From Parvibaculaceae bacterium Mf 1.05b.01 (lineage in GTDB: Bacteria > Pseudomonadota > Alphaproteobacteria > Parvibaculales > Parvibaculaceae), in contig BAOK01000002.1 in assembly GCA_000509225.1 (NCBI GenBank), forward strand, positions 128,496 through 192,495: a stretch of DNA of 64,000 bases. The letters are read 5' to 3'. Of this stretch, positions 39,461 through 56,102 are shown piece by piece. Every line of letters starts with the position of its first letter. The first letter of the stretch is position 1. The notes under the pieces are model-generated. The model searched no databases, was not told the origin of the DNA, and saw only the letters and a list, made by a program, of their open reading frames with translations. Made by a program: the position numbers and the translations under genes.

Positions 39461-39868
39461 GGGATCTTCCTCAATTCAAACAGCGGGTCAAACAGCGGGT
39501 CAAACAGCGGGTCAAACGGCGGGGTCAGTTCGAAAGACAGAACCGGCGCAATCGCGGGCGTTCTAACAGGTTCGGCGAAAGCCTACCAGCCGCGTCTGGC
39601 CCTTCATCTGATCAAACAGTAGAAAGCTTATGCTTAACAAAGGCTTAACATGTATTAACCAGTTTTCGTCTCAAATCGCCTTGGGGCGCGTTAACCTTGG
39701 CTCTTTGTTAAGGTGACATGTCAGCTATCTTGTCCAAGTCACTATAGTTAACCAATTGTGAATCCTATGACGAGAGCGAAGTTCGCTATGGACTCATAAG
39801 GTTAGGGCGTGTTCTTGAGAGATAGACGTTAAGGATTGAATCCTTCGTTCGTTTTCGTTCTGGGCTGA
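39461..39868. promoter_or_regulatory. hisB upstream region with CtrA-like and GANTC sites
   Basis: About 400 bases without an ORF. TTAA-caaaggc-TTAA (39634-39648) matches the CtrA box (TTAA-N7-TTAA) exactly. A third TTAA follows at 39655 and further TTAAC/TTAAG at 39691, 39708 and 39748. GANTC sites occur as GAATC near 39760 and 39838 and GACTC near 39791. A perfect palindrome AAGGATT-g-AATCCTT (39831-39845) is followed on the plus strand by a T-rich stretch. Confidence 0.55.
39477..39526. repeat. Four tandem 12-base repeats in the hisB leader
   Basis: AAACAGCGGGTC occurs three times in a row and is followed by a diverged copy AAACGGCGGGGTC. The array begins 17 bases upstream of the hisB ATG, between its ribosome-binding site and its promoter region. 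Copy number could vary by slippage. Confidence 0.85.
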
Positions 39869-53589: not shown

Positions 53590-54414
53590 CTATTGTCGGC
53601 TGTAAAGATTGAGAATGGCGGCGGCGGTTTCTTCGACGGACCGCCTTGTCACGTCGATCACCGGCCAGCTGTGCTTGTTGAAAAACCGGCGGGCTTCGGC
53701 AAGCTCTGAGGTGATCAGATCCTTGTCCACATAGTCGGTTTCGGTTTGCTCATTTAAGGAGAGCAAGCGGTTTTTGCGAATTTGCGAGAGCCGATCGACG
53801 CTGGCAACAAGCCCGACGATCAAGGGGCTGGTCGCGGTTTCCAAATCTGGCGGCAAAGGCGTGCCCGGCACAAAGGGCACGTTTGCCGCTTTGATGCCGC
53901 GGTTGGCAAGATAGATGCAGGTCGGTGTTTTTGACGTCCGGCTCACGCCCACCAGGATAATGTCTGCATCATCCAGGTCACCTGCCGTCTGCCCATCATC
54001 ATGGGCCATGGTGAAGTTGAGAGCGGCAATGCGGTCAAAATATTCCGCATTCATTTCGTGTTGCACGCCGGGCTTGTGTGAGATTTCCCGTCCGAGATAG
54101 GTGCCCAGTGCATTGATCACCGGGTCCAGAACAGAGATACAGGGAATGTCCATCTCCCCACAGCGTTCAAGCAATTGATCGCGCAGTTTTTCATTCACCA
54201 TCGTGAACATTACGAGCCCTGGCTCACGCTCAATCTCAGCAATGGCTCGGTCCAGCTGTTTGGGTCCGCGCACCAGTGCATAGATATGTTCAACAGGGCT
54301 CACGTCTTCATATTGCGCACAGGCAGCGCGGGCGACAGCGTTCAATGTCTCGCCTGTCGCATCAGAAACGAGATGCAGATGAAATAGTCGACGAGGACTG
54401 GGGCGGCTGGTCAT
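53590..54414 (-). CDS. Pyruvate, phosphate dikinase regulatory protein (DUF299)
   Basis: A bifunctional kinase/pyrophosphorylase that regulates pyruvate phosphate dikinase by ADP-dependent phosphorylation. The 274-residue protein has HLHLVSDATGETLNAVARAA at the start, the P-loop-like ILVGVSRTSKTPTCIYLANRG and KHSWPVIDVTRRSVEETAA at the end. The target ppdK is not in the window. ATG 54414 is used; a GTG at 54438 is possible. This gene (RP001-like) borders the origin in many alphaproteobacteria. Confidence 0.95.
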   Translation of the reverse strand: MTSRPSPRRLFHLHLVSDATGETLNAVARAACAQYEDVSPVEHIYALVRGPKQLDRAIAEIEREPGLVMFTMVNEKLRDQLLERCGEMDIPCISVLDPVINALGTYLGREISHKPGVQHEMNAEYFDRIAALNFTMAHDDGQTAGDLDDADIILVGVSRTSKTPTCIYLANRGIKAANVPFVPGTPLPPDLETATSPLIVGLVASVDRLSQIRKNRLLSLNEQTETDYVDKDLITSELAEARRFFNKHSWPVIDVTRRSVEETAAAILNLYSRQ

Positions 54415-55064
54415 GTGGTTTGAATTTCCGGACAGCACTCAACGGTGCTTTTTGGGACGTTTGAAACGGCGGTTAAGTTTTCGGCGCAAAAGCTGCCTAA
54501 AACTATCGGGGCTCGCGGTTGATAGCCAGACTTTCGTTAAGAGCTCTTAAGCAAAGATGAGGAACGCAAGAGCCTGTGGATGAGTGTGGAAAACCGGCAT
54601 AAGTCCCCGGTTTTGTTAAGGCCCTACCTGGTCATACCCGTGTTTCTTTTTTCATCGACCGTTCTGTTCATCGTTAACAAACGCCCTTTCAGGGGATGGG
54701 GAAAACGGGGACAAGTAGGGCAAAGCCCTATCAGCTCGACTTATCCCCATGGTTCGATTTATCCACATGCGGTTTCTGCACAGTCCAAGTCCCTGTTCGT
54801 TCATGGACTCTTTTTGGATGGGCGGGAGTCACTCACAATTGCAGTCACAATCCTGTACACTTGTCGCCTGTGACAAAACGCCTAACGGTTTCGGGCAATT
54901 TCGGGGACAAAATTTAATCCCCAATCTCCACAGGCATCCACTATCCACTACATCCTTTTATAAGATTCTATATAAGAGGCGGAACGCGGGATAAGTGTGT
55001 GACGCACGTCCCTCAAGAGGACTTCCAAAGGGTCCATGCACCCGTCAGAAACCCAGAAGGTGTT
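54415..55064. other. Predicted chromosomal origin of replication (oriC/Cori type)
   Basis: A 650-base gene-free gap between divergent DUF299 and hemE, the place of Cori in Caulobacter and of oriC in several relatives. DnaA boxes: TTATCCACA perfect at 54759-54767; TTATCCCCA at 54741-54749; TGTGGATGA at 54575-54583 and TGTGGAAAA at 54585-54593 on the other strand, each one mismatch. GANTC sites lie at 54806, 54826 and 54964. GTTAA/CTTAA half-sites lie at 54472, 54536, 54546, 54616 and 54673, including a perfect TTAAGAGCTCTTAA. An AT-rich stretch at about 54950-54976 could be the unwinding element. Confidence 0.75.
54759..54767 (+). promoter_or_regulatory. Perfect DnaA box
   Basis: TTATCCACA, identical to the consensus DnaA-binding 9-mer. 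A one-mismatch copy, TTATCCCCA, lies nine bases to the left in the same orientation. Confidence 0.8.
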
Positions 55065-56102
55065 ATGAGCAAACCAGCTTCAGAAAAGAAATTCCTGCGG
55101 GCTCTTTCAGGAGAAGTCTTCGACCATCCCCCTATCTGGCTGATGCGGCAGGCAGGGCGGTATCTTCCTGAATATCGGGAGACACGGGCACAAGCAGGCA
55201 GCTTTCTAAATCTCTGCTACACGCCAGAGCTTGCGATTGAAGTGACCATGCAACCTATCAGGCGATATGGCTTTGATGCTTCTATCCTTTTTTCAGATAT
55301 TCTTGTTGTGCCGGACGCTCTGGGTCAGAAGGTCTGGTTTGAGGAAGGGGTGGGACCTCGTCTTGACCCGATCACCCATGTGGAAGGGCTGAAACAGCTC
55401 GACAGATCTCGGGTTCTCGATCACCTGAAGCCGGTCTTTGAGACGGTCAAAGGATTGCGGCAGGAGCTCCCGAAAGAAACCACGCTTATCGGCTTTGCAG
55501 GGGCACCCTGGACGGTGGCGACTTATATGGTGGGGGGTAGAGGTTCGCCAGATCAGGGGGCTGCCAAGGCCTGGGCCTATGGCGATCCTGAAGGCTTTCA
55601 GTCGCTCATCGACCTGCTGACAGAGGTGACGGGTGATTATCTTGAGGCGCAGGTAAAAGCCGGCGCTGAAGTGCTGCAGATATTTGATACCTGGGCGGGG
55701 TCCCTGCCAGCAGACCAGTTCAGGCGGTTCTGCCTCGAGCCCATTCAGGCATTGCGTGCTCGGCTCAAAAAATCCTGTCCTGATGTGCCGGTGATCGCGT
55801 TTCCAAAAGGGGCGGGGGCGGCCTATGAAACCTACTTCCGAGAGACAGGTGTGAGCGCGATCAGTCTCGATACGTCAGTTGATCCGGTCTGGGCGGCCAA
55901 GGTTTTGCAACCGATCGGGCCCGTTCAGGGCAATCTTGATCCTCTGCTTCTGGTGGCCGGCGGTTCTGAGATGGACCGGGCGATCGACCATCTGCTTGAA
56001 ACGCTTGGGAACGGTCCCTGGATCTTTAACCTTGGGCACGGAATTGTGCCGCAGGTCCCGCCGGAAAATGTTGAGCGGCTTATCAAACGGGTACGAGGCT
56101 AA
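55065..56102 (+). CDS. hemE: Uroporphyrinogen decarboxylase
   Basis: Converts uroporphyrinogen III to coproporphyrinogen III. The 345-residue protein has the substrate motif [50 protein letters not shown] and [19 protein letters not shown] 55065 has AAGG four bases upstream. hemH begins two bases after its stop. Confidence 0.97.

Follow-up and report, generated by a model that had tools for sequence, protein, structure and literature searches.

The closest described system is the chromosome origin of Caulobacter crescentus, Cori, which was mapped between hemE and a DUF299/COG1806 gene (PMC1914354), in the hemE/CC_0001 gap. Cori is about 400 bp long and contains TGATCCACA G-boxes, an AT-rich block and five CtrA sites of the TTAA-N7-TTAA form. 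Its W-boxes, of TCCCCA consensus, bind DnaA weakly (PMC4285127), and parS lies about 8 kb away (PMC6399470). The wider Cori-type class does not require CtrA N7 sites, and the origin of E. ruminantium is without them (PMC1914354). A 2015 review stated that CtrA sites had not been seen in origins outside Caulobacter, except possibly in Rickettsia (PMC4468827), and a later ChIP study placed CtrA beside the Hyphomonas origin (PMC7200025). A TTAA spacing of N6 has been recorded at Caulobacter ctrA P2 (PMC3751295) and at two pilA sites (PMC11264516). DnaA-trios have been described for bacterial origins in the orientation 3'-GAT-5', and under the BUS rule a DnaA box at the unwinding element must have three or more NAN trios (3'-5') no farther than 16 bp from it (PMC8287927).

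We analysed a 64-kb stretch of DNA from a Parvibaculaceae-like alphaproteobacterium, hereafter the window, in which an earlier note had proposed a chromosome origin between a DUF299 gene and hemE, exactly at the Cori position. For this 650-bp gap we computed the location, the turn of the GC skew, the DnaA-box cluster, the instability and the conservation. Synteny, box cluster and skew sign change all support the proposal, and we predict with high confidence that the gap is oriC, the single origin of the chromosome and of the Cori (hemE/DUF299) type. We grade this call as strong; it locates the replication origin in a genus that is not among the model Alphaproteobacteria. The flanking genes are the same as in Caulobacter and point away from the gap, as had been claimed (Table 1). 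They are followed outward by maf, aroE, coaE, dnaQ and secB on the PpsR side and by hemH, hemJ and rho on the hemE side. Of 108 loci that hold both hemE and a PpsR/DUF299 gene, some of them duplicate records, 107 have the divergent arrangement with a gap of 267-784 bp; the named near relatives are Rhodobiaceae/Parvibaculaceae.

Table 1. Features of the predicted origin and its flanking genes, with positions in the window.
Feature	Position	Strand	Evidence or conservation
PpsR/DUF299 (COG1806) gene, left flank marker of Cori-type origins	53590..54414	-	NF003742, 340 bits vs cut-off 225
oriC (predicted), divergent intergenic region, ~650 bp, Cori-like	54415..55064		synteny, DnaA-box cluster, GC-skew switch
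26-bp imperfect palindrome with TTAA-N6-TTAA TTAAGAGCTCTTAA (54537-54550)	54531..54556		candidate CtrA site; inverted repeat
DnaA box TCATCCACA, 1 mismatch	54575..54583	-	conservation 0.96
DnaA box TTTTCCACA, 1 mismatch	54585..54593	-	conservation 0.93
TTAA half-site (GTTAAGG)	54616..54619		conservation 0.83
TTAA half-site (GTTAAC)	54674..54677		conservation 0.96
Weak DnaA box / W-box TTTTCCCCA, 2 mismatches	54697..54705	-	within 20-bp direct repeat of 54585-54604
DnaA box TTATCCCCA, 1 mismatch, includes W-box TCCCCA	54741..54749	+	conservation 0.98
Perfect DnaA box TTATCCACA	54759..54767	+	conservation 0.96
GANTC (GACTC)	54806..54810		motif scan
GANTC (GAGTC)	54826..54830		motif scan
Two adjoining weak DnaA boxes TAATCCCCA, ATCTCCACA, 2 mismatches each	54915..54932	+	conservation 0.91, 0.96
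GGCATCCACTATCCACTACATCC, irregular counterpart of relatives' DnaA-trio-like array	54933..54955	+	homology to relatives
AT-rich block CTACATCCTTTTATAAGATTCTATATAAGA, candidate DNA unwinding element	54948..54977		least stable 30-bp of 64 kb; conservation 0.94
GATTC, CcrM-type site inside candidate unwinding element	54964..54968		identical in 7/7 genus members (1.00)
hemE, right flank marker	55065..56102	+	TIGR01464, 411 bits vs cut-off 303

The gap was compared with 98 homologous origin gaps, from seven members of the genus, 26 other family members and 65 others. Mean identity to the window was 0.73 over the seven genus members, and conservation tracked the binding motifs, while the relatives differ from one another by indels. 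The best conserved parts were most of the DnaA boxes (0.91-0.98) and the AT-rich block together with its GATTC. The hemE/COG1806 origins of Rickettsia, Rhizobiales and Parvibaculum occupy the same gap and share its enriched DnaA boxes as well as a GANTC, frequently AAGANTC, next to the AT-rich end on the hemE side; the gap here is longer than most of theirs, as it is longer than Cori. Two chance-sized ORFs (97 and 81 aa) overlap the gap, an Rfam scan of it returned no match, and its GC content is 0.49 compared to about 0.56 for the genome.

One perfect and three one-mismatch DnaA boxes were counted in the gap, in agreement with the earlier note, whereas about 0.08 (0.076) would be expected in 650 bp (Poisson P ~1e-6). 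Two-mismatch boxes and W-box-like TCCCCA sites are also present, and in every group of the 98 homologous gaps DnaA boxes greatly exceed the chance expectation. Caulobacter Cori likewise combines DnaA boxes with weak TCCCCA sites, but the boxes here are near the E. coli consensus, unlike the Caulobacter G-boxes. We also observed a 20-bp direct repeat, whose copies at 54585-54604 and 54697-54716 are offset by 112 bp, and around the weak DnaA boxes the inverted pair GTCCCCGGTTT/AAAACGGGGAC (54603-54613 with 54702-54712), and with these repeats the origin seems to be built of duplicated modules.

GC skew was sampled in 20-kb stretches of the genome itself and compared with two complete congeners (G002 and G003). 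Over 0-120 kb of contig C1 it is negative, at 150 kb it is close to zero, and from 170-200 kb it becomes and stays positive; the gap itself lies at about 183 kb. Skew turns a second time close to 1.2 Mb of C2; if both contigs form one circle, the two arcs between this turn and the gap measure about 2.0 and 1.8 Mb, which is nearly antipodal on the 3.82-Mb chromosome. The congeners behaved alike, and their skew goes from negative to positive at the same genes. In each of the three genomes the cumulative GC minimum falls to the PpsR side of the gap, at a distance of 11 kb in G002 and G003. In our genome it is 42 kb away, on a flat plateau, so that skew alone does not pinpoint the gap. On the hemE (positive-skew) side, all three genomes have two perfect parS sites at a distance of 14-16 kb from the gap, compared to 8 kb in Caulobacter. 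The dnaA gene lies at 51 kb of C1 (51043-51525), 131 kb from the gap and with negative skew on both sides; we rejected it as the origin because the skew does not turn there. This distance differs from the Caulobacter arrangement and is much farther than in classical dnaA-linked origins. The earlier note had expected the skew to turn at the gap and not at dnaA or parAB, and this expectation was borne out, since the sign changes around the gap in our genome and both congeners, dnaA is not at the turn and parS is 14-16 kb away.

We considered whether the gap could be a mere divergent promoter region for hemE and the PpsR gene, with DnaA boxes that serve transcription and a true origin elsewhere in the skew plateau, for example near dnaA. 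Skew near zero over C1 100-180 kb, with the minimum of our genome at 141 kb, would allow such a displacement, and DnaA is a transcription regulator in Caulobacter (PMC4468827). However, four boxes of this quality within 400 bp occur only in this cluster among 270 kb of the genome and about 250 kb of each congener, dnaA sits within negative skew, and the skew minimum of the two congeners is 11 kb from the gap. Moreover, the gene order agrees with the experimentally mapped Cori, and a promoter scan found no sigma-70-like promoter in the gap, though this last point is weak evidence. We therefore regard a promoter-only role for the gap as very improbable.

The AT-rich stretch beside hemE that the earlier note had pointed out proved to be the least stable 30-bp segment of the window (Table 1). 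Beside this block, relatives carry TCCACAGG and then a series of CTA/CCA/CAA triplets. Arrays of regular C[ACT]A triplets were detected in 23 of the 98 origins on the plus strand and in one on the minus strand, with about 0.2 expected per strand, and their orientation agrees with that of described DnaA-trios (PMC8287927). The corresponding stretch of our species reads ATCCACT-ATCCACT-ACATCC, and the strict BUS/DnaA-trio rule found no match at the expected place. The order of DnaA box, GG spacer, CTA-rich stretch and AT-rich DNA is nevertheless that of BUS origins of the Bacillus subtilis type; regular trio arrays of that type occur in some relatives (L009, L008 and L182), whereas our species has two ATCCACT repeats that fail the three-trio rule. 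By homology to these relatives, 54933-54955 is a putative trio element. A strict IHF consensus, itself degenerate, had no match in the gaps of the seven genus members, unlike in Caulobacter Cori. This negative, the trio-like stretch that fails the rule and the lack of a perfect N7 CtrA site are points against the oriC reading.

By analogy with other bacteria, these elements suggest an order of assembly, a site of unwinding and two inputs from the cell cycle. DnaA would bind two groups of boxes, a minus-strand pair at 54575-54593 and the plus-strand boxes TTATCCCCA/TTATCCACA at 54741-54767, assisted by weak TCCCCA-type sites. Starting at the weak boxes of 54915-54932, it would then spread along the ATCCACT/trio-like stretch, upon which the AT-rich block beside hemE would open and helicase would be loaded there. 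The GANTC sites, one of them in the unwinding element, may provide an input from the methylation cycle, and CtrA bound at the TTAA-N6-TTAA pair and at the single half-sites might hold back or adjust initiation.

The three GANTC sites counted by the earlier note are all present, and they exceed the rate of the window only mildly (P ~0.04), so the GANTC case is carried by the relatives. Over the seven genus members, GANTC occurs at 5.15/kb in the origin gaps compared to 1.3/kb in their genomes, and over genus and family at 5/kb compared to 1.1-1.3/kb outside. AAGANTC is found within the gap in all seven genus members, 21 of 26 other family members and 32 of 65 other origins. The window as a whole is depleted four-fold, with 77 GANTC sites against 293 expected, as would be anticipated if GANTC were methylated. 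As in Caulobacter, the genome has genes for GcrA and CtrA (NF045991, 427 bits vs cut-off 350), and it encodes one full-length CcrM-like methylase (NF050803, 646 bits, under the 830 cut-off of this Caulobacter-based model). Cell-cycle control of the Caulobacter kind, as the earlier note suggested, is supported only in part: the CtrA, GcrA and CcrM-like genes and the GANTC enrichment are in keeping with it, but the spacing of the candidate CtrA site is N6 and no origin outside the genus has the site. We consider control of oriC by CtrA and CcrM plausible and unproven.

That note had also singled out a perfect TTAAGAGCTCTTAA among its CtrA half-sites. The sequence is real, but we rejected it as a canonical N7 site because its spacing is 6, and the gap contains no perfect TTAA-N7-TTAA, compared to five N7 sites in Caulobacter Cori. 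The N6 pair was kept in five of seven genus members, with varying middle bases; it was not found in the other two, in the 26 other family members or in the 65 other origins, and it sets this genus apart from the hemE/COG1806 origins of Rickettsia, Rhizobiales and Parvibaculum. Of 30 ctrA loci in this lineage, 29 carry TTAA-N6-TTAA in the promoter. When intergenic TTAA pairs with a TTAAC/GTTAA outer base were sorted by spacing over three genomes that are related and not independent, N6 and N7 stood out equally (11 each, about one at other spacings). The motif at the ctrA promoter, TTAACC-TTTR-TTAAC (N6), is present in nearly all Parvibaculaceae examined.

Direct repression of the origin by CtrA as in Caulobacter, through this pair and the half-sites at 54616 and 54674, would fit the presence of ctrA, the N6 form of ctrA promoters here and at Caulobacter ctrA P2 (PMC3751295), the spacing preference in the genus, the retention of the pair in five congeners despite its varying middle bases, and the rank of the gap as the second TTAA-densest area of the window. 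Against it, the pair is gone from two congeners and absent from 26 other family members, the gap is without an N7 site, and no strong DnaA box is overlapped, the nearest being 25 bp away. The pair also lies inside a 26-bp inverted repeat, so another dimeric regulator is possible. On this sequence evidence, we put direct CtrA repression slightly below an even chance. The palindrome could instead serve the PpsR gene as an operator or promoter element and have no part in replication, in line with its inverted symmetry and its place on the PpsR side of the gap; this seems rather unlikely, since it stands amid other conserved origin sites and its TTAA spacing agrees with that of CtrA sites in the genus.

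A possible CtrA site confined to close relatives is the one mildly new point on this origin. The genus may have gained its own CtrA input at a Cori-type origin by way of an N6 site not present in other Parvibaculaceae, a separate acquisition of the kind suggested for marine Caulobacter; we offer this tentatively and think it doubtful. The flanking genes, DnaA boxes and AT-rich block with GANTC are the old parts of the Cori-type origin and the CtrA sites its fast-changing part, and with this division it becomes testable across Parvibaculaceae how many times the origin came under CtrA control.

The most TTAA-dense spot of the window is at 39461-39868, between hisB and a GST-like gene. A short tandem repeat of GGGTCAAACAGC type (39480-39525) lies there just upstream of hisB and is absent from two aligned congeners. 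The region has seven half-sites, including the chain CTTAACAAAGGCTTAACATGTATTAACC (N7 then N6), and conserved GANTC sites; two congeners have retained the half-sites and GTTAACCAATTGTGAATCC. The region resembles a promoter under CtrA/CcrM control, which may belong to a small gene or RNA that is not annotated.
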